From positions 1-45,161 of the forward strand of contig CAIOVX010000095.1 of NCBI GenBank assembly GCA_903861835.1: a stretch of 45,161 nt of DNA, given 5' to 3'. Position 1 is the first letter of the stretch; each line of letters opens with the position of its first letter. Of the stretch, positions 2,674 through 26,093 are shown in pieces. Under the pieces are notes generated by a model. That model was not told the DNA's origin. It searched no databases and saw only the letters and a program-made list of their open reading frames with translations. This DNA is from Candidatus Firestoneibacteriota bacterium (GTDB taxonomy: Bacteria; Oederibacteriota; D2-FULL-39-29; CAIOVX01). The position numbers were made by a program, and so were the translations under genes.

Positions 2674-5600
2674 TTTAGCACCAGCCTCCCGGTGACCTTC
2701 TCGCCGGCGGTATTTGTGATCATATAAAAATAGATACCCCTTACTACGGCTGAACCACCGTCATTTTTCATATCCCACTCAATAAGACCCGTGTCATCCT
2801 TTATGGTCCTGGCAAGCTCTCCCGACACGGTATAGATTCGCAAGGTCACGCCTGTCGTAAGGTTCATAAACTTCACAGTCTGTCCAAAAGCAGTCTGCGG
2901 GTCTGCCGGGTTGGGGAAAACTGCCACGGATTTTAGATCCGACGAGGCAGTTACAAACCTTCCCAGCCGGTACGTAGAAAAATGCGTAACATCCGCATAA
3001 ATTATTTTGTTAACTGTGTCGACAACAGCCGTATCAACAATTACCCACCGACCGGTGTCCAATACCAACAACTTGAGGTTGTTTTCCAGCGTGCTGTCGT
3101 TGAGCCCCGCGGAAGAATAATCAATTTGCACCCTGACCGTTTTGCCGGGCTGTATCGTGAGCCCAAGCATAATATTGAAATCTATCGTGAACGGGTCCAG
3201 ATAAGAAGGAAATCTCAGATTGGTATAGACGGCGGAGTTAGCGCCCGCGACCAAAGAGTCAGCCGGCGCGGCTCCTAAGATTAAGGTGTCCTGGCTAAAA
3301 CATCCGGAAGGAACCAACAGTCTAAACTTGCTGCCTATTATTGTCTGCGTGGTAGGCGAGGTGCTGTCAAGCATCACATATATGGCAGAACTGGTCGCGT
3401 CAGTAAAAACAGTAGAGCTGACTACCATTGAGTATTGGGCGAGAGCCTGCCCGGACGGCAGAATTACAACCATACTTGTATCAGCAGTCACATTGTATGA
3501 GAGTGAAGCGCCCGTGTTGAGCTTGACTCCGGTAACAACCGGGCTGCTGGTGCCTCCGTAAAAACCTCCGCCGCTGACTGTCATCGTAAGCGCGCTTGTC
3601 GCCCTGCCGTGGTTAGGGGTTATTGTCCCCAGTATTAACGGCGAGGTTACAATGCTTACCGGAGAGGAAGTGACTGCCGCTGAGGGATTTCCGGTTGTGA
3701 GTATGAGGTTATAGGTTCCGGTGTAAGGCATAACCGGCACGGAAAAAGAGATTGAGGAGTCGGAAATAACAGAATACGAAAGTACACTCGTCTGCGGCGA
3801 TGTATCAATAACCAAAGTCCTGATATCCCCGCTCCTAGTACCGCCGTAAAAACCGCTCCCCAAAATAGTAATTACGCTCGTACCGTTATTGTAAACCTGC
3901 GACGGAGAAAAAGACGCAATATACGGAGCGGCCGTGCTGATTAAGAAATTCGGGCTTGTCAGGTTCGTGCCGAGACCGGTAGTTACCCTTACATTGTAAG
4001 TACCGGCCTTTGTGTTACCGGAAAAAACCACACCGTAAATATCAAGGTTTGATTCTACCGTGTAGGAGACAGCGCTGGTCTCCAAAGGATCATCAAGCTT
4101 TACAGAAGTTACCGTAGAAGAAGGGGTGCCGCCGAAAAACCCGGAACCGGAAATATTATTTATGACAATGGTTGCTCCTGGCGTGGAACTGTTGGAATAG
4201 GAGCCCGAGGGTGATGGACCAGGACCCGGGGTTACCAAAGAGATGTTCACGCCGTAAACGCTGTTATAAAGTCCTGCCGAAGTTGCGTTTGAACCGCCGC
4301 CATTTACGGCAATCATATTGTAATAATTATTGGTGCCCAAGCCGCCGTCGTATAGCGCGGGCAGTACCGCCGTAAGCGTAGTGTCAGAATTAACGGTCAG
4401 TGAAGAGGCCGTATAAACCGTCGTGGTTACGGGAGTGGACCTTAAAAGGAAACTGCGGACATCAGGAGCGTCCGCCCCTCCGTAAAAACCGGCGCCGGTC
4501 ACGGAAATAGTCGCGTACCCGGTATTGCCTCTCGTTGCCGGGGAGCAGGTCAAGACCGTCGGAACCGCGGTCGTCACGGAAAATTTCTGGGCGCTTGTTG
4601 TGTTTGAGTCGGAGTTCGTGTAGACCTTGACATTGTAGGAACCGGTACGAATACCCGCGGGAACCACAGCGGGTCCAATCATCGTGTCAGAGAATGAGGC
4701 GCCGGAAAGATTGAAGGATGTATTGTAGGCGTCGTCAAGCTTTACAAGCGTGAGAGGAACTTTGCTTCCCGTTCCTCTGAAGAAATTCGAGCCTGTCACC
4801 GTAACGGTAGTAAGCCCTGTGTTGTTCCCTGTTGCCGGAGTTATCCCGGTGACGGTCACGCCGCTGCCGGGAATACCGTATTGCGCCGCGCTGGCGTCGT
4901 TCCAGATCTGGTCGCTGCCGGAAATACCCAGCTGGACCCTTAATCCGTAAGTACCGGGAAGCATGCCGGCGGGCAGCACTGCTCCGTCTATCTCGGTATC
5001 GCTCGCGACAGAAAAACCGGTAAGCGGGGTCCAGATACCGTTAATAAGATAACAAGACTGCACCCCCCCGTAAAGCGAGAAACCTGTCCCGTAAAGCGTA
5101 AGCGTGGCCGCCGAAAGGCTTGTACCCGCGGACGGGGTGACTCCCGTAACCGCAGGTCCGGCAAGCACCGTTATCTTCTTTGTGCTGGTTGAATTGCTTC
5201 CTGTGGTATTTGCCACACGAACGTCATAAGTGCCTGCCGGTAAACCCGCCGGAAGCAGAGCGCCTGTGATAACAGAATCGGAAATAACAGAATATGGGCT
5301 CGCCGGATAACTGGAGGCGCCTCCGTTAAGATTTACCGAAGCCACATCAGAAGTGGAAGCCATTCCTCCGAAGAACATGTTTCCGGTTATGGAAAGCGTC
5401 ACTGTGCCGTTTGTCGCTATCCTTGAAGGATAAACATTCGTAACGGCCGGCATCTGGCTGGTGACCTGAAACGAGGAGTTCGCCGAGGTGTCTGCGGTTA
5501 CGCCTCCGGCAGTTACGCTAACCTGATACGCCCCTGCCTTGAGCCCTGAAGGCACCCTCAATTGGATTGAAGTCGCGGCGTTAACCGTATAATTTCCTGC

Positions 5601-7850
5601 CATGCTGTAAGTCAAAGGCCCCTGCATTGAGATTGAGGAAACAGCCGAAACCGCTCCGCCGCCGAAAAAGCCCGCGCCTTTTATGGTAGTGGTTGTTATG
5701 GAAGTATTAAGGCCTGAAACAGTGGTAAGCGAAGTCACCAGCGGTTTCAGAAATATTTTATCAAGATAAATTGACATCAGCGAGGACGGAGGATTCCCCG
5801 GGCTGCCGCTGTTATAATTCGCTTCCGACCACATAACAGGTAACACCGTATTTACCCTTGACGGAAGCGAGAACGAGGCCGGATTGTTCCTGTACATATA
5901 GATGCTGTCAAGCTGGCAGCCTCCGGTCGCGCCATAATTATAATTGCCTGACTCGAAATAAGTACCGGTATAGAAACCCAGTGTGCCGTTTGCAGTTCCA
6001 TTCCCGATGGTCAGGCTTGAAATAGTGGTCGGACCAGAACCAAGCGTGTATTCAGGGCCGCTTGACTGGAGTACGAGCCTGCAAGCTGGGTTTGTAATGG
6101 AAGCTGCCGCTGTTGTGCCGAAACAGGTTACCCCTGTTGTTCCAATCTGCGCGTTTATTTGATTCATCGCTGACAGACAGTCAGTCGCGGCTGAAGTAAA
6201 AGTCACGGTTGCAGGAGATTTTGATTCGCTGTTTATAATAAGGGTCTTGCCGTTCAGCGAGTAGGGGCTGGCAAAACCGGCGCCGGCATCGGCTATAGAC
6301 GTCGCTCTCCACCCCACCTGCAGCATTATCCAGTAATTAGAAACACTGTTAACGGTGTTCGGCACCCAGTCGGCATGAGAATTGCCGATGCCCCATAAAG
6401 ATAGACCGCCTATATACCACCCGGCCCATAAGCTGGAATTAAATAGCGCCGCAGCCGCTCCGGTGTCCGGAAGCGTGGGCATGAACCTCTGCCAGTTACC
6501 CGATGAAGAAGACCAGTAGAAATATTTTAGGAGCGCGATGTTATATGACGGGTTTATGTTATATGAAAGCGGGAAGGCATTGGAATAGTCTCCTGAGGTG
6601 CCGCCTGCTCCCGTAGGGAATATCGCGCTGAAGGGAGTGGACTTCCCCAGGAAGATCCTGTCTCCCTTGTTTGTAAGAGCGCAGCCGTTTGTATTCATGA
6701 TGTCGCTGATTGAGGCAGTTGAAGCCTGCACGGTCATATCGGTGTAATTATTGTTCATGCTTGAGTAACAGAACACGCGATCGAATGCCACTGGTACCGG
6801 AGAATTTCTGAAAACCGTCTCGGAAGCATCCCAGGTCTGCGTGGCCGCAGTCCACTTTTTGTAGACTATGCTGTAATCGCCGTTCAAGGAGTTCATGTGT
6901 CCCCAGAAAGCCCAGAGATTCGCGCCGTCTGTAGTCAAATTGGGCCAGGAAACTATATCGCCTGTTGTCGAGAGCTGGGTCCAGTTGCCGTCCCAGAAAC
7001 CGGTGGCGCTCCTCTTCGCGTAGACAACATTGCCTTTGTACTTGCCGATAAAATGAAGCGCGCTGTCATCAGTGCAGACCGTCCTGCCGGAATAAAGTAT
7101 GTGGTTATAGGCAACGTTATAATTCTGCGTGTCTCCGGAAGCCAGGGCGAAATTTTCCCCTGAGACATAAGTCCCGTTGGACCTGAATTTTGAAACATAG
7201 ACAGGGCTGTAGCCGTAATTTGTCGTCGTGGTCGTGAATATGGAGTCATACCCTGCCGACAAAGTCGGAACAGAAGAACCTCCTGACTGCGGAATCGGAA
7301 GCAGCGACGAGAAACTATTGCCCGCGTCCGCGGAATATAGATAGTTGTCGTTGGGTTGTCCCGTGTTCGCGTTGGCAAGGTAAAGGTAATCATTATACGG
7401 AGTAACGGCGCTTAAGGGAGAGGCAAATGCTGCGATAGTTATGGGGGTACCTGATGCGGCAATCGCTCCGGTGGAAGCATTGTAAGTGTATTTTTTAAAG
7501 ATTGTAGATGTCCCGCCGGGTGAGTTGTAGGAAAAAAATAAATTATTGGAAGAATCTCTGGCAAGGCTTATGCCGCCTGCTGTCAGCGGAGTGGAAGCGG
7601 TAAAAGAATTGCCGTTATCGTAAGAGACATAAAACGCGTTGCCGGCAACAGCCACAAGCGTGCCGTCGCTTAATTCAACAATACGCCTTTGAGTTGTAGG
7701 ATAGTAATCTCCGGTATGCCAAACAGTCGGGAAACCGCCTCTGGAATTGCTTGTCGTCGTTACAAGCGTTGTTGAGGGAAAAAGGACAAAAGGGGACAGC
7801 AGCAAACTAATAAATAGTAAGATCCTATTAAGGATTTTCACGGGCGCCAT
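2670..7850 (-). CDS. Giant secreted protein: sialidase-like N-part, eight IPT/TIG repeats, FlgD/T9SS-like C-terminal tail
   Basis: 1726 residues. An N-terminal signal peptide (about residues 8-25, ILNRILLFISLLLSPFVLF) is followed by a BNR/sialidase-like, probably beta-propeller, region to about 420. A middle segment follows, then at about 700-1500 eight IPT/TIG-type immunoglobulin-like repeats, each marked by a G-x-G/N-F-[FY]-G-G type motif (for example GSGFYGG). The last ~85 residues (FPNPADP, then IYTVSGELARTI, WDMKNDGG, GIYFYMI, ending GRLVLK) match the FlgD-like or type A T9SS sorting domain. The protein is therefore exported and probably displayed on the cell surface. It has no catalytic motif I can identify. 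It is the first gene of a two-gene unit with the PilX-like gene, and its start lies only 7 nt from a consensus -10 box with no Shine-Dalgarno sequence. Family assignment of the repeats is firm; ligand and role are not known. Confidence 0.85.
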   Translation of the reverse strand: MAPVKILNRILLFISLLLSPFVLFPSTTLVTTTSNSRGGFPTVWHTGDYYPTTQRRIVELSDGTLVAVAGNAFYVSYDNGNSFTASTPLTAGGISLARDSSNNLFFSYNSPGGTSTIFKKYTYNASTGAIAASGTPITIAAFASPLSAVTPYNDYLYLANANTGQPNDNYLYSADAGNSFSSLLPIPQSGGSSVPTLSAGYDSIFTTTTTNYGYSPVYVSKFRSNGTYVSGENFALASGDTQNYNVAYNHILYSGRTVCTDDSALHFIGKYKGNVVYAKRSATGFWDGNWTQLSTTGDIVSWPNLTTDGANLWAFWGHMNSLNGDYSIVYKKWTAATQTWDASETVFRNSPVPVAFDRVFCYSSMNNNYTDMTVQASTASISDIMNTNGCALTNKGDRIFLGKSTPFSAIFPTGAGGTSGDYSNAFPLSYNINPSYNIALLKYFYWSSSSGNWQRFMPTLPDTGAAAALFNSSLWAGWYIGGLSLWGIGNSHADWVPNTVNSVSNYWIMLQVGWRATSIADAGAGFASPYSLNGKTLIINSESKSPATVTFTSAATDCLSAMNQINAQIGTTGVTCFGTTAAASITNPACRLVLQSSGPEYTLGSGPTTISSLTIGNGTANGTLGFYTGTYFESGNYNYGATGGCQLDSIYMYRNNPASFSLPSRVNTVLPVMWSEANYNSGSPGNPPSSLMSIYLDKIFLKPLVTSLTTVSGLNTSITTTTIKGAGFFGGGAVSAVSSISMQGPLTYSMAGNYTVNAATSIQLRVPSGLKAGAYQVSVTAGGVTADTSANSSFQVTSQMPAVTNVYPSRIATNGTVTLSITGNMFFGGMASTSDVASVNLNGGASSYPASPYSVISDSVITGALLPAGLPAGTYDVRVANTTGSNSTSTKKITVLAGPAVTGVTPSAGTSLSAATLTLYGTGFSLYGGVQSCYLINGIWTPLTGFSVASDTEIDGAVLPAGMLPGTYGLRVQLGISGSDQIWNDASAAQYGIPGSGVTVTGITPATGNNTGLTTVTVTGSNFFRGTGSKVPLTLVKLDDAYNTSFNLSGASFSDTMIGPAVVPAGIRTGSYNVKVYTNSDSNTTSAQKFSVTTAVPTVLTCSPATRGNTGYATISVTGAGFYGGADAPDVRSFLLRSTPVTTTVYTASSLTVNSDTTLTAVLPALYDGGLGTNNYYNMIAVNGGGSNATSAGLYNSVYGVNISLVTPGPGPSPSGSYSNSSTPGATIVINNISGSGFFGGTPSSTVTSVKLDDPLETSAVSYTVESNLDIYGVVFSGNTKAGTYNVRVTTGLGTNLTSPNFLISTAAPYIASFSPSQVYNNGTSVITILGSGFYGGTRSGDIRTLVIDTSPQTSVLSYSVISDSSISFSVPVMPYTGTYNLILTTGNPSAAVTSSPVSIVTSPLILGTITPNHGRATSALTMTVSGGGFYGGTSSPVVTGVKLNTGASLSYNVTADTSMVVILPSGQALAQYSMVVSSTVFTDATSSAIYVMLDSTSPTTQTIIGSKFRLLVPSGCFSQDTLILGAAPADSLVAGANSAVYTNLRFPSYLDPFTIDFNIMLGLTIQPGKTVRVQIDYSSAGLNDSTLENNLKLLVLDTGRWVIVDTAVVDTVNKIIYADVTHFSTYRLGRFVTASSDLKSVAVFPNPADPQTAFGQTVKFMNLTTGVTLRIYTVSGELARTIKDDTGLIEWDMKNDGGSAVVRGIYFYMITNTAGEKVTGRLVLK

Positions 7851-10654: not shown

Positions 10655-10683
10655 ATTATATGAAATATAGGCCTCTTTGTCAA
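10655..10683 (-). promoter_or_regulatory. Consensus sigma-70 promoter for the rny leader
   Basis: TTGACA (10683-10678), exactly 17 bp, TATAAT (10660-10655). The -35 box overlaps the fthC stop codon. It is a perfect consensus, so it should be a strong promoter, and predicts a start near 10648. Confidence 0.85.
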
Positions 10684-11261
10684 GAACGGCGGAGGACTCC
10701 CGTTTCGGTTACCAGAATATCCACTTTCCTATCGTTGATTTTTACAGGAATGCCTTCTGTAAGCTGCATTTTATAGCAGAGCGCGGCTTTTACGGCTCTT
10801 ACCCCGGCCTCGGAGAAGAGCCCGTCATAAAAACCACCGCCGTAGCCAATCCTGTTAAACGCGCTGTCAAAAGCAATTCCCGGAGCCACTATCAGGTCAA
10901 GCATATTCTTCTCAGCCGGCCTTATACACTCTTTCTTTGGCTCAAGTATACCGAAGGTTGAAGGGGCAAGCTCCAAATCAGGATCTATTACTTCTGAGAT
11001 GTGCAGGCAGTTCTTCTCAAGGTCCGTAATCGGGACAAAAACCCTCTTCCCTGCATTCAGCGAGGCCTTAATCATTTCATGCGTGTTCACTTCGCTGCCG
11101 AATGAGACATAGTAAAGAATGTTCTTTGCGGTTTTGTATTCGGGAAGTTTGAAGAGCTCTTCCGCTATTCTTTTGCTCTTCTCAAGAATTTCCGGCGCGG
11201 AAAGGGCGCTCCTCGCTTCCCTGAATTTCTTCCGTATGTTTTGCTTGGGGGATTCGCTCAT
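10680..11261 (-). CDS. fthC: 5-formyltetrahydrofolate cyclo-ligase
   Basis: 193 residues. Converts 5-formyl-THF to 5,10-methenyl-THF with ATP, recycling folate in one-carbon metabolism. Family hallmarks: the basic N-terminus KKFREARSAL, a central region FVPITD, and the signature GYGGGFYDGLF near residue 140, which belongs to the nucleotide/folate site. Length is typical. GGAGAG lies 4-5 nt before the ATG. The gene stands just downstream of the sugar importer and its repeat-filled gap, and upstream of rny. The folate link to metF and metV about 5 kb away may be more than coincidence. Confidence 0.93.
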   Translation of the reverse strand: MSESPKQNIRKKFREARSALSAPEILEKSKRIAEELFKLPEYKTAKNILYYVSFGSEVNTHEMIKASLNAGKRVFVPITDLEKNCLHISEVIDPDLELAPSTFGILEPKKECIRPAEKNMLDLIVAPGIAFDSAFNRIGYGGGFYDGLFSEAGVRAVKAALCYKMQLTEGIPVKINDRKVDILVTETGVLRRS

Positions 11262-11409: not shown

Positions 11410-13359
11410 TTAATGCTGCACCGGGATAATAATGCCCCTCATGATAATTCTCTGGGCGAAGATAAAGATAAGAAGCGTGGGAATAGAAGCTACAACGTAC
11501 GCGGCCATTCTCACATGCGGCGGAGCCCATTCCCACATTTGATACAGCCATACCATTATAGTCCACATATTGGGGTCCTGACAGACAAGCATCGCGAACA
11601 TAAAGGCGCCGTAGGCTCCGACGAACGCGCCGATGGTCAGGTAAGCGAGCACCGGTTGAGCCAGCGGGAGCGTTATATTAAAGAAAATATTTAACTCGCT
11701 GGCGCCGTCCATCTCGGCAGCCTCGTAGAATTCTTTCGGAAGGCTGTCAAAGAAGCCCTTCAATATGAAGATGGAGAAACCGTTTGCCAGGCCGGGCAAT
11801 ATCAGCGCCCAATAGGTATTTAGCAAATGAAGGTTCTTAAGCAGCAGGAAGTTCGGAATCATGCCGACTTCAGCGGGGAAAGCCATCGTAGCCAGCAGGA
11901 AAAGCAGAACTTTGTTCCCGTAAGAGAGCTTGAACCTTGAAAGCGCGTAAGCGCACATCGGGTTTATGGTAAGCGTGACCAATATTACCGCAAGCACATA
12001 AATTACCGTGTTCAGCACCGCTTTGCCGTGAAGCACGACATAGCCGAAAACTTCATTGTAATTTCTCTGAATAAAATACCAGCGAAGCTGAGCCTTTTTC
12101 GCTTTGAATTCAAAGGTATCAAAAACCTGGTAAGGAACGCGCGCGGAGTCAAGTGAGACTATCTTGGTCCCGTATGTCTCATTGACTTTTGCCGTGCTGG
12201 CATACTTATTCTTCAACCAGGCGCGATACAGGTTCTCGGTGCTGTTAAGAGTTATGTATTCAGCCGGCAGCTTCTTCGCCACAAACTCACCCAGGCATTG
12301 AAAATACTGCCTCTGGCTGCTGTTTAAGATATCTCCGGACGCCTTAAAGGAATCAAAAGAGGTAATCTTTTCAGCCCACACTTCCGACATTATTGTGACA
12401 GTCTTGTATTTTTCCCTCAAGAATTCGCTGAAAAGCGGATCAGCCTTCTTGCTGACAATCATATACCTTATCGGATATTTCAGTTTGGCGAACTCTTTCC
12501 ATTCTTCCTTAAGCGCTCCGGCGTCATTCAGAGTCGGCGCAAGCACTATCTGGTTGAACTGCGTGAAGTTTGTCTTATTCTTCAGGTTGAGGTCAGCTAG
12601 ATTTTCCTCATCGGTGCTCTTCTTATTATATTTCACGCGCAGAAAGGTCTGCCACGGCCCGTCGCAGTTTACAAAGAAATACTCGTCAGGGCTTAATCCC
12701 TTCTTAAATTCCGTAAAATCCTTCTGTATGGGTGAATTTTCAAGCGTGTAGACCCGGTCCCAAAGACGCTCAACCGGAGACCTGACAGAAGATATGTCAA
12801 GATATTCGGAAGTGTACGCTTTATTCACCTCCGCAATAGTCCCGTATCTCTTCTGAACCCAGACCCTAAACTTATTCTCTACAGGACCGGTCATGCTTCC
12901 GGTACCCTTAAACCCGCCAATCTTGTAATTCAGAGGAAGAGCCGAAACAAAAGTTTCCCAGTCCTCATACATTTTCTTCCCGTTAAGACCGGTCAAATCA
13001 GCTTTCGGCACCTCTTTGAACTCGATAGGCAATATTTTGTCATTCTTTGCCGCCATCGCCTTGTTGGTAGTCGAAACATCAACCCTCTCGCCGAATCTTT
13101 CATTTACAAACGGAAGGTTGGCGCTCGGCGTGGCATATTTCAAAGCCAGGAATTTCCTAAATAGCATGTCATCGTCATGAGTGTATCTCGGAATCAGGTT
13201 AAACTCTTTAAAATCTACATCATCCGTAATTGAATTACTCAACATTATGGCAAACGGATACACCATTGTGATACCGCCGAGTATCAATATCGCGTACATT
13301 ACCGCGAAGATAGCTATGACCCTGGGGCTTTTTCTTCCGACTATGTCTATTAAAGGCAT
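11410..13359 (-). CDS. MalG-type sugar ABC transporter permease with a large repeat-containing insert
   Basis: 649 residues, against about 270-300 for normal MalG-type permeases. Residues 13-38 form the first transmembrane helix, and about 445-649 contain the remaining helices of a binding-protein-dependent permease, including the EAA loop (EAAEMDGASELNIFFNITLP, about 546-565). Between them lies a hydrophilic insert of about 390 residues, predicted periplasmic. It contains six copies of [FWY]-x2-[FW]-x3-[KR]-Y, starting at residues 67, 164, 236, 287, 310 and 378; in two copies the context continues as KY-x-[ST]-x3-VN-x2-Y, recalling sequences in GH42-type sugar enzymes. It follows the binding-protein/permease fusion gene by 9 nt and is presumably its heterodimer partner. 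No ATPase gene is in the window. Transport role is firm; insert function is unknown. Confidence 0.88.
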   Translation of the reverse strand: MPLIDIVGRKSPRVIAIFAVMYAILILGGITMVYPFAIMLSNSITDDVDFKEFNLIPRYTHDDDMLFRKFLALKYATPSANLPFVNERFGERVDVSTTNKAMAAKNDKILPIEFKEVPKADLTGLNGKKMYEDWETFVSALPLNYKIGGFKGTGSMTGPVENKFRVWVQKRYGTIAEVNKAYTSEYLDISSVRSPVERLWDRVYTLENSPIQKDFTEFKKGLSPDEYFFVNCDGPWQTFLRVKYNKKSTDEENLADLNLKNKTNFTQFNQIVLAPTLNDAGALKEEWKEFAKLKYPIRYMIVSKKADPLFSEFLREKYKTVTIMSEVWAEKITSFDSFKASGDILNSSQRQYFQCLGEFVAKKLPAEYITLNSTENLYRAWLKNKYASTAKVNETYGTKIVSLDSARVPYQVFDTFEFKAKKAQLRWYFIQRNYNEVFGYVVLHGKAVLNTVIYVLAVILVTLTINPMCAYALSRFKLSYGNKVLLFLLATMAFPAEVGMIPNFLLLKNLHLLNTYWALILPGLANGFSIFILKGFFDSLPKEFYEAAEMDGASELNIFFNITLPLAQPVLAYLTIGAFVGAYGAFMFAMLVCQDPNMWTIMVWLYQMWEWAPPHVRMAAYVVASIPTLLIFIFAQRIIMRGIIIPVQH

Positions 13360-13368
13360 TTTTACCCC

Positions 13369-15840
13369 CTATTCTTTGTTCGCGGACGTCTGGAATCTTA
13401 CGTCCTTGAGCATATTGAGCTGGAAGATGGTGAAACCGACAAGAATGCTGCCTAGTATCCACGCTATCGCCGTGGCATAACCGAATTTCAGATAGACGAA
13501 GGCATTATAGAAGACCTCAAGCCCGACCACGTGCGTGGCGTAGGCAGGTCCTCCTCCGGTCATCAGCAGGATCCTCTCCGTAGCATAGAAGGAACCTATG
13601 AAGGCGCCCACAAAATTCATAGTGACAATAACGCGAAGCGTCGGGAAGGTAACATTCCAGAGCTTCTTCCAGATGCCGGCGCCGTCTATAGCAGCGGATT
13701 CATAGAGTTCGTCAGGCACATTCTTAAGGGCGGCAAGGTAAAAGATACTGCCGCTCCCCACACCCGCCCAGATTCCGGGGATAATAACACAGAGCATAGC
13801 CAGGTTCGGATCTCTCAGCCACATCTGCCTCTTAATGCCTACAAAATGAATTATAGTGTTCAACAAGCCTGCCTGCGAAGGATCATAGAAGAGTTTCCAG
13901 AGCAGCAGCACGACTATTCCACTGGTGATGGTCGGAAGATAGAATATGATCCTAAAAAGCAGAGAACCTCTCGGTATCTCGTTCAAAAGAAGCGCAAGGA
14001 ATATCGGAGCAAGAAAGCCGAGCGACATAGAGAGCACAACATATAGAAGCGTGTTCCCCATAGCTTTCCAGAAGAGCCCGTCCCAGAGAACTCGCGCAAA
14101 ATTCTCTAACCCTACGAACGAACCGACGAAAGATTCAAAAAAGGGCCTGCTGTCCATTACCTTATAATCCTGGAAGGCCATTAGCAGTCCTCTAAAGACC
14201 GGCAGATAGCCCCAGAGCGTCACGGTTATTACCGCCACACCCATAAAGAGCCATGCATAAATGTGAATGCGTAAAGGAACCTTCCCGACCTTGGCTTCTG
14301 TTTTTTTCTGACCGACTATTCCTGAAAGAGTTGAAATCACTTTCACGGCTATAAAAACCAGCGAGGCACCTACCAGGCAAAGGGCAATCAGTATGATGAG
14401 CTTTCTCTTATGCATCTCTTTCTCGGCAATTATACCGAGAAGTTTTTCATTAGTGCTTGCGACCGCCTTGTCCAATTCGGCCTTATAATCAAGATGGTCA
14501 TTCGCAGGAAGCATGATCTTGTCCATCAAAGGCGCGAGTTCAAAATAGATTCTGTCGCAGTTCTTTCCGAAAGGCTCCGGATGGGCGTATTCAAAGGCTT
14601 TATCGTTTGCCGCGACCCACTCAGGGTTAATCTCGTCAAGTATGGCTGTATAGCCGAACTTTTTGAGCCAGGTCGGGTGGACGAACTTTCCGAGGCCCTC
14701 TTCAACATAAATCTGGGTATAGATTCTGTAAGGCTCGTCGCTCGCCATATACTTAATGTATTTAACAGCGGCTTTTATTGTAGCTTCCGCTTCGTCGGGC
14801 GGAAGAGTCTGCCGTATCTGGGCATTCACGCCCATCATAGTCTGGTTGTATTCACCGCCTCCGACGCCATTCGGGCCTACCGGCAGCGGAGCAATTCCGT
14901 TAATATCAGGATTGGTTGTTGCAGGCATTGCCTGCAGTGAATCCAGGTAGTCAAAGCTCATACCAACTTTGTTCTGAGTCCATTTGGTGTAGTCATCAAC
15001 ACAAACAACTCCCTTCGCTTTCTTGCCGCTCGGGGTCGTGTATTCCTCGTGGAAAAGTCTGCCGTAGAACTTCAGCGCTTCAACGCCGTGCTCGTCATTG
15101 TAGCAGGCTACCCAGTTGCCCTTTTCATCCTGCTTTACAACCTCGCCTCCGGCCTGATAAATAAAGTTAAAATATTTCCAGGCGGCTTCGTCGCTTCTGC
15201 CGGTCAGCCAACCGTAGGTTCCTTCATCCGGATCGCTCATCTTCTTGGCGTAATCAAGAAACTCTTCCCAGTTCTTGGGCGGTTTATTTGGATCAAGACC
15301 TGCCCTCTTAAAAGCCACTTTGTTGTACCAGAGCGCCATAATCATCGGTGTTCCGTAAGGGACAGCGTAGATATGTTCGTTGCTGTCAGGCGGGCCTTTT
15401 TGAATAATAGTTTTTCTAGTCTTCGGGCTTATCGCGTTTTTTGTCGCCTGATCAAGATAACTCTCAAGCGGCAGGAAGAAACCCTCCTGTATGAAAGTGG
15501 TGGATTTTCTAAAGTTGACATACATCACATCAGGCGCGGTGCCCCCGGCAATTGACATCGTTACCGCATCAAAAGCCATCTGGCCTTCAAGTTTTATTCC
15601 GGAGGCCGTTGTAATATCAATATCGGGGTTGTCTCTGACAAATTTCTCGAAGATCAGCCTGTCGGCCCTCATCTTTGCGCCGCGGGCATCCTTGGGCGGT
15701 ATGCTCCAGAGTTTAAGCCTTGCCTTCTTTTTGTGCGCGGCGGCTGTGTCTGCCGGCTCAGCCGTCTGGGCCAAAGCGGTTACTGCCACGCAGGCAGTCA
15801 GCACAAGAGCAATAACAAGCTTATAGAGCCTGTTCAACAT
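13369..15840 (-). CDS. Sugar ABC transporter: substrate-binding protein fused to MalF-type permease
   Basis: 823 residues. Residues 1-25 are a signal peptide (MLNRLYKLVIALVLTACVAV). Residues about 40-475 are a family-1 extracellular solute-binding protein (TAPDVMYVN; AVPYGTPMIMALWYNK; NWEEFLDYAKKM). A transmembrane helix (about 481-500) leads into a MalF-type permease with its EAA loop (ELYESAAIDGAGIWKKLWN, about 711-729). Normally these are separate proteins, so the receptor is tethered to the channel. I start at 15840 because GGAGG precedes that ATG by 6 nt; an upstream ATG at 15912 would overlap nuoA and hide the signal peptide. Substrate is presumably a carbohydrate; it cannot be specified. 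The fusion boundary lies in one uninterrupted frame, and the signal peptide plus helix spacing make topological sense. Confidence 0.9.
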   Translation of the reverse strand: MLNRLYKLVIALVLTACVAVTALAQTAEPADTAAAHKKKARLKLWSIPPKDARGAKMRADRLIFEKFVRDNPDIDITTASGIKLEGQMAFDAVTMSIAGGTAPDVMYVNFRKSTTFIQEGFFLPLESYLDQATKNAISPKTRKTIIQKGPPDSNEHIYAVPYGTPMIMALWYNKVAFKRAGLDPNKPPKNWEEFLDYAKKMSDPDEGTYGWLTGRSDEAAWKYFNFIYQAGGEVVKQDEKGNWVACYNDEHGVEALKFYGRLFHEEYTTPSGKKAKGVVCVDDYTKWTQNKVGMSFDYLDSLQAMPATTNPDINGIAPLPVGPNGVGGGEYNQTMMGVNAQIRQTLPPDEAEATIKAAVKYIKYMASDEPYRIYTQIYVEEGLGKFVHPTWLKKFGYTAILDEINPEWVAANDKAFEYAHPEPFGKNCDRIYFELAPLMDKIMLPANDHLDYKAELDKAVASTNEKLLGIIAEKEMHKRKLIILIALCLVGASLVFIAVKVISTLSGIVGQKKTEAKVGKVPLRIHIYAWLFMGVAVITVTLWGYLPVFRGLLMAFQDYKVMDSRPFFESFVGSFVGLENFARVLWDGLFWKAMGNTLLYVVLSMSLGFLAPIFLALLLNEIPRGSLLFRIIFYLPTITSGIVVLLLWKLFYDPSQAGLLNTIIHFVGIKRQMWLRDPNLAMLCVIIPGIWAGVGSGSIFYLAALKNVPDELYESAAIDGAGIWKKLWNVTFPTLRVIVTMNFVGAFIGSFYATERILLMTGGGPAYATHVVGLEVFYNAFVYLKFGYATAIAWILGSILVGFTIFQLNMLKDVRFQTSANKE

Positions 15841-15862
15841 AAAACCTCCGTACAGAGATAGA

Positions 15863-16216
15863 TCATTCCCACTGAAGGGAGCCCTTCTTCCAGGCATAAA
15901 GCAGTCCGGCAAGAAGTATTCCCAAAAATACTAATAGTTCTACCAGCGCAGACACCCCGAAAGACTTAAAAACGACGGCCCAGGGGAAAAGAAACACGGC
16001 TTCAACATCAAAGACCACGAAGAGCAGGGCAAAAACATAGTAGCGCATATTGAACTGTATCCAAGCCCCGCCGACAGGTTCTTCACCGCACTCATAGGTT
16101 TCGTTTTTCTTAAGCGAAGGTCTTGAAGTTCTGACCAGATAAGCCGTGATGAGGCCTGCGGCCGTAAAGCCCAGAGCCATTACAATGAATATGAAAACAG
16201 CAAGATAGTCGTTCAC
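15863..16216 (-). CDS. nuoA: NADH-quinone oxidoreductase subunit A (orphan)
   Basis: 117 residues with three transmembrane helices, the usual NuoA size. The diagnostic stretch TYECGEEPVGGAWIQFN, then FDVEAVFLFPWAV with the conserved acidic residues, is present. NuoA is a small membrane subunit of complex I, near the quinone site. Oddities: the start codon is GTG, placed directly after the metF stop (TAA then GTG, zero gap), and none of the other complex I subunits is in the window. nuo genes normally sit together with nuoA first, so either the operon is broken up here or this copy serves another membrane complex. Downstream, 22 nt away, is the sugar importer. Family certain, role uncertain. 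Confidence 0.92.
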   Translation of the reverse strand: MNDYLAVFIFIVMALGFTAAGLITAYLVRTSRPSLKKNETYECGEEPVGGAWIQFNMRYYVFALLFVVFDVEAVFLFPWAVVFKSFGVSALVELLVFLGILLAGLLYAWKKGSLQWE

Positions 16217-17121: not shown

Positions 17122-17185
17122 GATTACGCAGATTACGAAAAGCGATTGCATGGATTAAATCTATTACTAATCAGCGTAATCAGAG
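17122..17185. repeat. 9-bp GATTACGCA repeat, forward then inverted
   Basis: Forward nonamers GATTACGCA (17122), GATTACGAA (17131), GATTGCATG (17144) and GATTAAATC (17153) are followed by reverse-orientation TAATCAGCG (17168) and TAATCAGAG (17177). The last unit runs into the metV stop codon. The array fills the metV-metF gap. Confidence 0.65.
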
Positions 17186-17209
17186 ACTACTTTTTTTGTA
17201 GTCCCTGAT
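17179..17209 (-). other. Hairpin spanning the 3' end of metV
   Basis: On the minus strand ATCAGGGACTAC and GTAGTCTCTGAT form a 12-bp stem (one G-U) around a seven-A loop, with the metV stop codon in the 3' arm. No T-run follows, so it is not a standard terminator; it could protect or process the metV-metF mRNA, or be chance. Confidence 0.4.
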
Positions 17210-17797
17210 CTGAACGCCTTCCTTAAGCCCCTTATCGCTGCCTTTCAACGCCGTCATCCGTTCAAATATTCTCTGCCAACCGCACTCCATATCTTTGTCT
17301 ACTTCGCATTTTCCGTTCTTGGCGCCGCCGCACTGGCCGTTTAGCAGTCCCTTGGAACAGGCCGTGACCGGGCAGATGCCGAAAGTTAGGCCCATTCTGC
17401 ACTCGCCGCACTGCTCGCAATCGTGAAGTGACGGCGTAAACCCGGGGAAGCCCGGAACATAAAAGGTATCGCTGCCTGAAACAATCTTCTTTTCCGCGAG
17501 CAAACCGGCGAAAGTCTGGATGCCTACTCCGCAGGAGAAAATCAGCACTGTGTCTGCCGCCGCAAGCTGTTCCCCGTAAATCTCGAGCCTGCGCTCCGTA
17601 AAATCCTCTCTGCACATATAATCAAAAACAACCTCGGAGGTGATATTTGCGCCGGCAGCCTTTAATTCCGCTTTCAGCTTATTAAATTCCTCGACAGGGA
17701 AAAAACTTTGAGCGCAGCCAAGGCACGGAATAACGAGCACCCGCCCGGTAAGCGACGGGAGCAATTCCTCTTTTGTCTTTACCTTTGTAATCAGCAT
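17180..17797 (-). CDS. metV: MetV: cysteine-rich MTHFR partner subunit
   Basis: 205 residues of the MTHFR C-terminal/MetV family, a zinc- and Fe-S-binding protein that forms a complex with MetF in acetogens. Twelve cysteines are positioned as in the family: C25, C28, C62, C89, then C127-x2-C130-x2-C133, C142, C147, C156, C164, C172. The block from C142 on contains the signature KGLLNGQCGGAKNGKCEV. All twelve align with the N-terminal domain of the next gene upstream, so the two MetV units are paralogues. Its ATG lies 1 nt after the stop of the MetV-RnfC gene, indicating an operon. The C-terminal codons form a hairpin. No function other than MetF partner is suggested by the sequence. Confidence 0.93.
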   Translation of the reverse strand: MLITKVKTKEELLPSLTGRVLVIPCLGCAQSFFPVEEFNKLKAELKAAGANITSEVVFDYMCREDFTERRLEIYGEQLAAADTVLIFSCGVGIQTFAGLLAEKKIVSGSDTFYVPGFPGFTPSLHDCEQCGECRMGLTFGICPVTACSKGLLNGQCGGAKNGKCEVDKDMECGWQRIFERMTALKGSDKGLKEGVQIRDYKKSSL

Positions 17798-17798
17798 G

Positions 17799-19787
17799 CT
17801 ATTTTTTCTTCCCCCTAATGACTTTCTTCGCCTGTTTAATTATTTCAACTATGGAGGACTTGGCGGCGCAGATATTATCGCAGCAGCCGCACTCTATACA
17901 GTTCATAACCCCGTGGTTTTCCATTTCCGCGTATTTGCCCTTTTGCGCGAGCAATACATAGAAAGTCGGCTTCAGTTCCATCGGGCAGACCTCAACGCAA
18001 CGACCGCACTTTATGCATTCCGGGCCCGACTCCACGATATCGTGCTTCTTCACAACGACTAAGCCGCCCGTGCCTTTGATCACCGGAGCTTCCCCGTCTG
18101 ACTGCGAAACTCCCATCATCGGGCCGCCGGTCTTCAGTACTTCGTCCGCGTTTATTTTTATGCCGCAGAACTTCACAAGCTCTTTTAGCTGGGTGCCGAG
18201 AAGCACTTCAAAATTGCCTCGCTTCGGTACCGATTCGCCGGATACGGTAAGCACGCGCTTAATGAGCGGCGCGCCGTTATAGACAGCATCCCAGACTGCG
18301 TACGCAGTGCCGACATTATTGACAACCACGCCTACATCAAGAGGCAGCCCTCCAAGTGGGACTTCCCGCTTTAGGACGCGCTTTATGAGCATCCTTTCGG
18401 CGCCCTGAGGGTATTTCGTCTTAACAACTTCAACCATAATGGAGGCATCATTCTGCAGCAGCTCCTTTAATTTCGCTGCGGCCTCAGGTTTATTATCTTC
18501 TAAAGCTATTATTCCGTTTGAAACACCGGCAGCTTTCATTAGGAGCCGCAAGCCCAGAATGAGTTCTGCCGGGCGTTCCAGCATAACGCGGTAGTCGGCG
18601 TTAAGCAGCGGCTCACACTCGCAGCCGTTTATCAAGACCGTATCAAGCGGCTTGGGGGATTTTAATTTGACCGCGGTAGGAAAACCTGCGCCGCCCATTC
18701 CGACTATCCCTTTATCCCTGATCACTTCCGTTATCTTTTCTTTCGTGAGAGATTCCAGGGTGCCGGCCGGTCTGATAGAAGCGTCAAGTTCCTGCTTTTT
18801 ATCTGACTTAATGACCACGGAAAGCACCGGCGCCGGAAGAACAGGATGCTTTTTGGGCGCTACCTCAAGAACCTCGCCGCTTACACTGGCATGTACCGGA
18901 GCCGAAATCGGCGACTTTACGCTCTCTCCTATCTTTTGCCCTTTCAAAACTTTGTCGCCCTTTTTCACAAGCGGCTCGCACACAAGGCCGGCATGCTGGG
19001 ATAGCGGTATTATTACGGTATCCGGTTCCGGAAATATTTCTATGGGCAGTTCCGAGGCAAGTTCTTTGAGTTCGAAAGGATAAAGCCCTCCGTAGAAACC
19101 TTCCGACCTTTTTGCTCTGATGAGCTTAACATACTCATCAACTAATTTAAAACTGTTGCGCCGGTAATTCCTGAACTTAGGCGCCTCTTCAACAAAGCCT
19201 TTCGTCCTGCCCTGCTTATCAAGCCGGTTATATATTAGTTCCCAGGCGCAGTCGCGGTGTTTCCCCACTTCGCACTTTCCGTTCTTGGCTCCCCCGCAGG
19301 GGCCGTTGACCAGACCTTTCGCGCAATCCACCACCGGACAAATGCCGCCCGTTGAGGTCAGAAAACACTCTCCGCAGGCTCCGCACTTCTCCGCCGAAAG
19401 CGTAACGCCGTGGTGTCCATTCTGCCAGAGTGAATCCGCGCCGGGGAGCGTTTGCTTATTAACCAGCGCTGAAACCGTCTGGATGCCCAGCCCGCAGGCA
19501 ATGACCAGAACAGCCCCGGAGTTTTCTACTTCCTTTTTATATGCCTCAAGAATCTTTTCAGTCAGGTACTGGTTGCAAAGGTAATCAACGGGGATGTAAC
19601 CTGAAACGGTTTTTCCAGCCGACTTGATAATCTCAGCCGCTTCCTGGTATTCCGGCTCCGCAATGGACACGAATTCCTTGAAACATTTGTTGCAGGAAAC
19701 AACAAGAATGTTATCCTTTCCGGAAACCAGCTCCTGCAGCTCTTTCGCCGGTTTCAGCTTATATTTTGTAAAATCCTCTTTAATCAT
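17799..19787 (-). CDS. MetV-RnfC fusion: NADH-linked electron-transfer subunit for MTHFR
   Basis: 662 residues in two parts. Residues 1-210 are MetV-like, with all twelve cysteines (C32, C35, C71, C98, C135, C138, C141, C150, C155, C164, C172, C180). Residues about 230-662 are a full RnfC/NuoF-like module: a biotinyl-lipoyl-like SPISAPVHASVSGEV, the flavin/NADH-site glycine run GIVGMGGAGFP (361-371), INGCECEPLLN, and two 4Fe-4S clusters (C591, C594, C597, C601 and C630, C633, C636, C640). In Acetobacterium woodii RnfC2 is a separate subunit that feeds NADH electrons to MetVF; here it is covalently joined to a second MetV. No other Rnf subunit is present, so this is unlikely to be part of an Rnf pump. 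Role by analogy: NADH input for MetF. The GGAG ribosome-binding sequence is 12 nt from the start. Confidence 0.9.
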   Translation of the reverse strand: MIKEDFTKYKLKPAKELQELVSGKDNILVVSCNKCFKEFVSIAEPEYQEAAEIIKSAGKTVSGYIPVDYLCNQYLTEKILEAYKKEVENSGAVLVIACGLGIQTVSALVNKQTLPGADSLWQNGHHGVTLSAEKCGACGECFLTSTGGICPVVDCAKGLVNGPCGGAKNGKCEVGKHRDCAWELIYNRLDKQGRTKGFVEEAPKFRNYRRNSFKLVDEYVKLIRAKRSEGFYGGLYPFELKELASELPIEIFPEPDTVIIPLSQHAGLVCEPLVKKGDKVLKGQKIGESVKSPISAPVHASVSGEVLEVAPKKHPVLPAPVLSVVIKSDKKQELDASIRPAGTLESLTKEKITEVIRDKGIVGMGGAGFPTAVKLKSPKPLDTVLINGCECEPLLNADYRVMLERPAELILGLRLLMKAAGVSNGIIALEDNKPEAAAKLKELLQNDASIMVEVVKTKYPQGAERMLIKRVLKREVPLGGLPLDVGVVVNNVGTAYAVWDAVYNGAPLIKRVLTVSGESVPKRGNFEVLLGTQLKELVKFCGIKINADEVLKTGGPMMGVSQSDGEAPVIKGTGGLVVVKKHDIVESGPECIKCGRCVEVCPMELKPTFYVLLAQKGKYAEMENHGVMNCIECGCCDNICAAKSSIVEIIKQAKKVIRGKKK

Positions 19788-21404: not shown

Positions 21405-22031
21405 CTATTTCTTGTAAGGAACCATTACAAGCCCTTGTCCTTTGCAATCCGGACAGATTATATCCTTCACATTCTTTTTCTTGTCATTTCCAGAGGCATA
21501 TGAATCCGAACCCTGCTTAGCAGCAGTCGTTATTTTCTGAGATATTTTTACCGGCTCACTTATGTAGCCGGTCCCCTTGCATCTCTTGCAGTTGATAAAG
21601 TCACCAGGCAGCGCATATTGATTCTTATTCAGGCCGCCAAACGTGGTCTTTCCCTTGCTTGAGCCGGTTTGCGTTTTTCCGAAAACACCGCCCGATATTT
21701 TTCCCGGCTTACGCTTGACGCGGCCTGTACCGCCGCAAAAAGAACAGTTGACCAGGCCAGTACCCGAGCAATTCTTGCACTTTTCTTTGCCCGCCGCTCC
21801 CGAACCTGCGCAAACAGAGCATTTTACTTTGCCGGAGTGGCAGAAAATGCAGTCTTCCATATTTGAACCGAAGGATCTTTTTTCTTCGGTGGTTTCTCTC
21901 TCAGGAGCCGGCATTGCAAGCTGCTTGGGAGAGATAATCTCGTTTATCCGTTTAAATAGGCCGGGATTGACAAAATACGCTCCCAGTCCAAGCAGGCTTA
22001 GGACAAAAAAGAACAAAAGGATTTTTTTCAT
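21405..22031 (-). CDS. Membrane-anchored DnaJ-type zinc-finger protein (copy 1)
   Basis: 208 residues: an N-terminal hydrophobic helix (about 4-21), a linker, then about five CxxC pairs, several in the DnaJ cysteine-rich form CxxCxGxG: CIFCHSGKVKCSVCAGSG, CKNCSGTG, CSFCGGTG, CKRCKGTG and, after a low-complexity linker, CPDCKGQG. There is no J domain, so it is not a co-chaperone DnaJ but a zinc-cluster protein facing the periplasm, or anchored to the membrane with the cluster in the cytoplasm. It is the downstream paralogue of the next gene (34-nt gap) and starts similarly (MKKILLFFF against MKKLMLILF). Function unknown; a redox or protein-folding role is only a guess. Confidence 0.75.
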   Translation of the reverse strand: MKKILLFFFVLSLLGLGAYFVNPGLFKRINEIISPKQLAMPAPERETTEEKRSFGSNMEDCIFCHSGKVKCSVCAGSGAAGKEKCKNCSGTGLVNCSFCGGTGRVKRKPGKISGGVFGKTQTGSSKGKTTFGGLNKNQYALPGDFINCKRCKGTGYISEPVKISQKITTAAKQGSDSYASGNDKKKNVKDIICPDCKGQGLVMVPYKK

Positions 22032-22065
22032 TATTTCCTCCGACCTGTCGAATAAACCAAAATAC

Positions 22066-22722
22066 TTATTGCAAGTCTTGTATCCTGCCGCTGCCGCCGC
22101 AAAGATCGCAAGTGAGGCTTCTTGAAGAAAGGAGATATTCGCAGTGACCGCAGAAATAGGTTATACCGCTGGATTCAGTTTTTCTCTCGACGGTGCTTCC
22201 GCACATCGGGCAGGTGATGATTCTAAGGTAGCCTTTCCCTGAACAGTTAGGGCAGGATTTTGAAGTTGAACGGGAGTCAATTCCCCGGGTGACCGGTTTT
22301 GTTTTATAATCATACGTGTCAATAAAGAGAGAAACGGTGCCTGCGCCCTTACAGCTTTTGCAACTTACATGCCCTATGCTGTCGCAATAGAGACATTTCT
22401 TTCCGATACCGTCCTTATCCGTAAACTCCCTTCCGCACGCGGAACAAAACTTACGGGTAACTCTTGTCTTGGCGTCATAAGTAAAACTGATTTCACTGTG
22501 GCATTTGGGACACCTCGTTAGAAGAGCATATCCTGTGCCGTGACAAACTACGCATTTGAATCTGCCGGCAGTGCACCACATGCACTTCTTTACCGGACCT
22601 TTAGCTGCCGGTTTGACCGTCTTAATATTGTTTTGCGGAAATATATGTGTGCCGTGTTTGAGCAAGTAGTAGGATAGCCCCGCGACGGCCGCCAGAAAAA
22701 GAATAAGCATCAGCTTTTTCAT
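22066..22722 (-). CDS. Membrane-anchored DnaJ-type zinc-finger protein (copy 2)
   Basis: 218 residues with the same plan as its downstream neighbour: N-terminal helix MKKLMLILFLAAVAGLSYYL, then CMWCTAGRFKCVVCHGTG, CPKCHS, CSACGRE, CLYCDSIGHVSCKSCKGAG, CPNCSGKG, CPMCGS, CGHCEY and CDLCGGSG, about ten CxxC pairs. DnaJ-type clusters (CxxCxGxG) alternate with rubredoxin/zinc-ribbon-like knuckles (CPxC/CSAC). GGGAG is 6 nt before the ATG. The start lies about 15 bp after the hppA terminator, so transcription needs read-through or a promoter inside the hppA 3' region. Function unknown. Confidence 0.72.
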   Translation of the reverse strand: MKKLMLILFLAAVAGLSYYLLKHGTHIFPQNNIKTVKPAAKGPVKKCMWCTAGRFKCVVCHGTGYALLTRCPKCHSEISFTYDAKTRVTRKFCSACGREFTDKDGIGKKCLYCDSIGHVSCKSCKGAGTVSLFIDTYDYKTKPVTRGIDSRSTSKSCPNCSGKGYLRIITCPMCGSTVERKTESSGITYFCGHCEYLLSSRSLTCDLCGGSGRIQDLQ

Positions 22723-25214: not shown

Positions 25215-26093
25215 TTACGCGTCTGCGTTTTCTATCTGGCTTTTTGAAGGCCCCTCGATAACGCAAAGGCCTTTTAATGCTTCTTCAAGTTGTTCCTTGT
25301 TCGGGACCACTCCGTGCCACTCGGGCTTGTTCTCCATAAAACAGACGCCCCTGCCTTTCTCGGTTTTGGCAACAATCATTGTCGGCTTGCCCTTGGTTTC
25401 CCTCGCTTCCTTGAAAGCCTTGAGGGTTTCTTCTATGGAATGGCCGTCTATCTCTATGACATGCCAGTTGAACGCTTTAAATTTTTCGGCAAGCGGGGCA
25501 ATTCCTTTCACATCTTCAACCTTGCCGTCTATCTGCAGATTGTTATAATCAACCCACGCGACCAGATTGTCCAATTTCCTGTGAGACGAAGTCATAATCG
25601 CTTCCCAGACAGAACCTTCCTGAAGTTCGCCGTCGCCCATAACGCAGAAAACCCTTGAATCGCTGCCGTCCATTTTAAGACCTATGGCAGTGCCGTTAGC
25701 GATTCCGAGCCCCTGACCGAGAGAACCGGCCGAGATTTCAATGCCCGGCGTCTTTAACATATGCGGATGCCCCTGCAAGCGGCTGTGAAGTTTTCTGAGA
25801 GTTAATAGTTCCGGCACAGGAAAATAACCGCTTTCAGCAAGCGCCGCATAGAGTACCGGGCACGCATGTCCCTTGGAAAGGAATACCCTGTCCCTGTCCG
25901 GCCATTTGGGATTCTTTGGGTCATGTCTGAGTTCCGCGAAATAGAGCGCCGCAAAAAAATCAGCGGCGGAGAGCGAGCCTCCCGGATGCCCGGAACCCGC
26001 GGCATTAAGCATCTCAAGAATGTCCTTCCTGATAGCCATCGCTTTTTCTTTTATATATTTGATATCCGGCTTACCGTTTTTCCCCTGGAACAT
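25215..26093 (-). CDS. Transketolase, N-terminal (TPP-binding) subunit
   Basis: 292 residues, the length of split transketolase N-halves (tktA, TIGR family of archaea and anaerobes). Visible: SGHPGGSLSAADFFAALYF, KGHACPVLYAAL, SAGSLGQGLGIANG, and the TPP motif GDGELQEGSVWEA to DYNNLQIDG. It transfers two-carbon ketol units in the pentose phosphate pathway and needs the C-terminal half, which normally follows directly; here hppA follows 24 nt downstream and no C-half is in the window. The next gene upstream is an unrelated sugar-phosphate isomerase. GGAGGG lies 4 nt before the ATG. Confidence 0.92.
   Translation of the reverse strand: MFQGKNGKPDIKYIKEKAMAIRKDILEMLNAAGSGHPGGSLSAADFFAALYFAELRHDPKNPKWPDRDRVFLSKGHACPVLYAALAESGYFPVPELLTLRKLHSRLQGHPHMLKTPGIEISAGSLGQGLGIANGTAIGLKMDGSDSRVFCVMGDGELQEGSVWEAIMTSSHRKLDNLVAWVDYNNLQIDGKVEDVKGIAPLAEKFKAFNWHVIEIDGHSIEETLKAFKEARETKGKPTMIVAKTEKGRGVCFMENKPEWHGVVPNKEQLEEALKGLCVIEGPSKSQIENADA

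Follow-up and report, generated by a model that had tools for sequence, protein, structure and literature searches.

The window, a 45,161-nucleotide stretch of DNA from Candidatus Firestonebacteria, very probably carries the operon (rnfC2-metV-metF) for a methylene-tetrahydrofolate (methylene-THF) reductase, or MTHFR, of type III (3S). The locus displays the traits of this enzyme type, namely the gene cluster, the joined MetV and RnfC domains, grouping with the Acetobacterium subunits and conserved Fe-S cysteines. For this lineage, a soluble enzyme that makes methyl-THF for methionine is the most likely reading, since searches of the order's genomes detected neither Rnf nor acetyl-CoA synthase. 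The MetV-RnfC fusion is itself already known as RnfC2 from reports of 2012 and 2021. Only the setting is modestly new, that is, a little-known phylum and an order whose examined genomes yielded neither the Rnf pump nor acetyl-CoA synthase.

The fused gene and its operon

The rnfC2 reading frame runs from 19787 to 17799 on the minus strand and encodes 662 amino acids without an internal stop, while the plus strand over 17799-19787 is rich in stops. A preliminary description had placed a MetV-RnfC fusion across exactly this span, and the domain searches agree with it, the gene lying on the minus strand. Pfam recognized PF12225 (DUF5981/MetV C-terminal domain) at residues 115-204 (E 3e-29), followed toward the C-terminus by RnfC_N, Complex1_51K, SLBB and Fer4 domains, and NCBIfam assigned residues 231-661 to TIGR01945 (rnfC) at a score of 477.8 bits, above the 245.95-bit cut-off. 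Coordinates of the operon and of a folate gene in its conserved neighborhood are collected in Table 1.

Table 1. Genes of the rnfC2-metV-metF-nuoA cluster and a neighboring folate gene in the window
Feature	Position	Strand	Basis
rnfC2: MetV domain (residues 1-~212) and full RnfC (~230-662)	17799..19787	minus	Pfam, NCBIfam, conserved cysteines
metV, stand-alone, 205 aa, same twelve cysteines	17180..17797	minus	PF12225; separate clade in tree
metF, methylene-THF reductase catalytic subunit, 296 aa	16217..17107	minus	PF02219, E 1.4e-36
nuoA, complex I subunit A	15863..16216	minus	PF00507
5-formyl-THF cyclo-ligase, folate gene in conserved neighborhood	10680..11261	minus	PF01812, E 3.5e-40

The MetV half contains exactly 12 cysteines (32, 35, 71, 98, 135, 138, 141, 150, 155, 164, 172 and 180), all of which are invariant across 30 aligned fusions and have counterparts in stand-alone MetVs. 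The same alignment of 30 fusions showed no variation in the glycine motif of the RnfC half (GMGGA, 363-367) or in the eight cysteines of its two 4Fe-4S motifs (591/594/597/601 and 630/633/636/640). The preliminary description was therefore correct in reporting that all twelve MetV cysteines, the RnfC glycine run and both 4Fe-4S motifs had been kept. It had also called the fusion a one-protein NADH module for methylene-THF reductase. The NADH-input subunit of that enzyme is indeed the best reading of the gene, but the enzyme is not one protein, as separate metV and metF genes follow downstream. Read along the minus strand, the order is rnfC2, metV, metF and nuoA. The fused MetV half is 38% identical to the stand-alone MetV of the window, and metF is the only match to PF02219 in the window’s genome.

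An assembly chimera was considered as the source of the fusion and rejected, since the same fusion occurs in other genomes of the order: it is full-length in seven further genomes and broken by assembly gaps in an eighth.

The best fold match of the fusion model was A. woodii RnfC with NADH (9eri_C; 42% identity, TM 0.80 by target), and solved structures matched the fusion by sequence in the RnfC half only. AlphaFold confidence was low in the Fe-S regions of the fusion, which was modeled as a single chain, as was the stand-alone MetV. The C-terminal Fe-S half of the latter was poorly modeled; a fold search with this model returned no match at E < 0.001, and no solved structure was found for it by sequence.

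Several other genes of the window were recorded in passing. A single open reading frame at 13369-15864 combines an extracellular solute-binding protein with an ABC permease domain (PF01547 and PF00528), and it adjoins a second large permease with a long insert at 11410-13359. At 21405-22722, two neighboring genes encode small proteins rich in cysteine, with CxxC motifs of the zinc-ribbon and DnaJ-like kinds, and three such genes stand in a row in two relatives (G002 and G003). The 292-aa product of 25215-26093 corresponds to the N-terminal half of transketolase (PF00456), with no C-terminal half adjoining. At 2670-7850 lies a gene for a secreted-looking protein of 1726 aa in which GxGFxGG stretches recur; it is probably a surface protein rich in repeats.

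Distribution and phylogeny of the fusion

The query for a scan of genome contigs was an alignment covering the MetV part and the start of RnfC, and the best 80 loci were kept; as the query favored fusions, these loci are not an unbiased census. Five belong to Candidatus Firestonebacteria and 75 to Bacillota (e.g. Blautia, Acetobacterium and Oscillospiraceae). All 80 encode the MetV-RnfC fusion, at an identity of ~50%. Downstream of it, metF is present in 73, and the order of metV before metF is repeated where the contig continues; the other seven loci end 1-616 bases past the fusion, hence their lack of metF. A search of the flanks of the 80 loci with one RnfD query found RnfD in none. The pattern that would have counted against the preliminary description, fusions accompanied by rnf operons and no metF, did not appear in these loci. 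One locus (L090) appeared to encode a triple fusion of 924 aa, which was rejected, its extra N-terminus being low-complexity sequence ahead of the usual MetV start and the product of an overlong start call.

In a maximum-likelihood tree of MetV, 31 fused domains, including those of the window and of Acetobacterium, fell on one side of a 100/99 branch, with the stand-alone domains opposite. The fused RnfC halves likewise formed one clade (100/99) that contained Acetobacterium and stood apart from five canonical RnfCs; within it, Firestonebacteria and Bacillota each formed a clade of their own. Because all of the fused MetVs share one clade with the stand-alone ones outside, the tree fits a single metV duplication and a single fusion, and on these sequences the simplest account would place both events before the Firestonebacteria and Bacillota lineages parted. 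Fused and stand-alone MetVs also differ consistently at certain alignment columns (e.g. K34/G27, A137/Q129 and D154/A146), which suggests that the two MetV domains may have different partners.

The host lineage and the question of Rnf

The rnfC2-metV-metF cassette was present in all nine genomes of the order that were searched, with gaps in one (G008), and the fusion found no match at E 1e-40 in any of the 36 other genomes of the phylum. Each of the nine has a single MTHFR gene, the metF of the cassette. A different kind of MTHFR is present in most other genomes of the phylum, in many cases with a far higher PF02219 score and in several as a reading frame of 560-655 residues.

Rnf-Nqr membrane subunits (PF02508; RnfA/RnfE) were found in none of the nine order genomes by a search whose control was positive in known Rnf/Nqr genomes, and the window’s genome has no second RnfC. 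CdhC/acetyl-CoA synthase (PF03598) was likewise found in none of the nine, in a search controlled by two archaeal matches, with no separate demonstration that it is sensitive to bacterial AcsB. The order therefore offers a natural test, with an intact RnfC2-MetV-MetF as its sole MTHFR where Rnf membrane subunits and CdhC were not found. The result argues that RnfC2 needs no Rnf and that this type of enzyme is not bound to acetogenesis.

These searches bear directly on a published hypothesis for A. woodii (Poehlein 2012, PMC3315566) in which RnfC2 docks on the Rnf complex. Applied to the window, RnfC2 would replace RnfC on that complex and wire the MTHFR to a membrane ion pump. The genomic company of the fusion in Bacillota is compatible with such an arrangement, as 32 of 36 sampled carriers also encode Rnf-Nqr membrane subunits at other sites in their genomes. 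In Candidatus Firestonebacteria it is extremely unlikely: with PF02508 unmatched in the nine genomes under a positive control and no second RnfC in the window’s genome, docking on Rnf is excluded in the order unless assembly gaps hide the Rnf genes in every one of the nine. The type III enzyme has moreover been described as soluble and outside chemiosmotic energy conservation (PMC8760232).

It could also be supposed that RnfC2, its original acetogenic setting having gone from an order without detected CdhC/acetyl-CoA synthase, has drifted to another role in NADH-linked electron transfer and has ceased to serve MetF. We consider such drift highly unlikely, given that metV and metF stand in the operon in every genome examined, that all of the cysteines and glycine motifs have been kept, and that metF is the sole MTHFR gene.

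In the preferred reading, a soluble NADH-dependent enzyme, methionine synthesis is the likely sink for methyl-THF. A homocysteine methyltransferase domain was detected in seven of the nine order genomes, and the window’s genome encodes a methyl-THF methyltransferase (PRK07535) after nuoI. Against this sink, the window’s genome is one of the two without a match to the homocysteine methyltransferase domain, and the MetH reactivation domain was mostly absent.

nuoA and a possible link to complex I

The nuoA gene begins on the base right after the metF stop. In each of the eight genomes with a match, this nuoA is the genome’s only copy and is directly downstream of metF; the other complex I genes lie at two separate places, as nuoBCDHI and nuoLMN. 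This arrangement raises the possibility that in this order complex I takes the place of Rnf as the partner to which the enzyme is coupled, such that NADH-dependent methylene-THF reduction would contribute to ion pumping and nuoA would be the trace of that coupling. Two further juxtapositions point the same way: a methyl-THF:corrinoid methyltransferase-like gene (PRK07535; L152:10370-11167) follows nuoI in the nuoBCDHI operon of the window’s genome, and in a genome from another family of the phylum (G010), a MetF-MetV fusion with MetF first (L189:14780-16444) lies ~1 kb after nuoLMN. However, long stretches of the neighborhood, functionally unrelated genes among them, are syntenic throughout the order, and the complex I genes are simply scattered over three places. 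Since the wider neighborhood is conserved in this way, the adjacency of nuoA and metF is weak evidence, and we regard coupling to complex I as very unlikely. NuoA, a membrane subunit, is not known to serve as a dock for NADH modules.

A physical coupling of the type III methylene-THF reductase to complex I in Candidatus Firestonebacteria, linked through the nuoA of the operon, is very unlikely in our estimation. Were it true, methylene-THF would accept electrons in a reaction tied to a membrane ion pump, and this in a lineage without detected Rnf or acetyl-CoA synthase.

Two observations on the surroundings may be added. A gene with the same start as the PRK07535 gene (IIxGERINATRKHVG) follows nuo genes in three other genomes (G004, G006 and G007). 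In relatives, the gene placed similarly to the 5-formyl-THF cyclo-ligase of the window lies downstream.

Proposed electron route

The domains, conserved ligands and operon of the enzyme are observed here, and the most likely electron route through it may be drawn from the A. woodii enzyme and from the anatomy of the subunits. FMN in the RnfC part of RnfC2 would take up two electrons from NADH. From there, the electrons would pass by way of the two 4Fe-4S clusters of RnfC and the Fe-S clusters of the fused MetV domain to the stand-alone MetV and on to the flavin of MetF, which would reduce methylene-THF to methyl-THF.

Comparison with known systems

The closest known system is the methylene-THF reductase of A. 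woodii, whose genes are ordered rnfC2-metV-metF. Its RnfC2 was reported to have an N-terminal “extension of 220 amino acids” that is “surprisingly similar (59%)” to MetV (Poehlein 2012, PMC3315566), and two papers from 2021 describe it as an N-terminal MetV domain joined to a C-terminal RnfC domain (PMC8760232, PMC8515935). The enzyme has been purified as a 1:1:1 complex of RnfC2, MetV and MetF with 2 FMN; it is NADH-dependent (248 U/mg) and is not stimulated by ferredoxin (PMC8760232). These reports bear on the preliminary description in several respects. It had taken A. woodii RnfC2 for a separate, unfused partner of MetVF, when the protein there is already MetV-RnfC (PMC3315566, PMC8760232, PMC8515935). 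The distinct enzyme architecture that it proposed is the architecture and gene order already described for A. woodii. Finally, its Rosetta-stone argument that RnfC-like proteins dock on MetV adds nothing, given that the complex containing the same fused subunit has already been purified.

The window shares with A. woodii RnfC2 (Awo_c09290) the N-terminal MetV and C-terminal RnfC domains, the metV and metF genes that follow in the same order, and the conserved twelve MetV and eight RnfC cysteines. Against a locus from a metagenome-assembled genome labeled A. woodii (L051), the fusion is 51% identical over 655 residues, its MetV and RnfC halves reaching 50% and 51%, respectively; the separate MetV and MetF subunits are 47% and 66% identical to their counterparts there. 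The A. woodii cluster is preceded by fhs-fchA-folD, whereas in the window those genes are not adjacent. The order represented by the window also differs from A. woodii in that Rnf membrane subunits and CdhC were not found in its genomes and in that nuoA comes directly after metF.

With the RnfC of the Rnf complex (9eri, 7zc6 and 8ahx), the window protein shares the whole RnfC domain, the glycine motif and the two 4Fe-4S motifs. It differs by the added MetV domain, by being encoded with metVF, and by belonging to a genome in which Rnf membrane subunits were not found. The X-type MTHFR (PMC8515935) resembles the window’s enzyme in having an NADH-dehydrogenase-like module encoded with metFV; there the module is a NuoEFG homologue with its genes upstream of metFV, whereas in the window it is the MetV-RnfC fusion.
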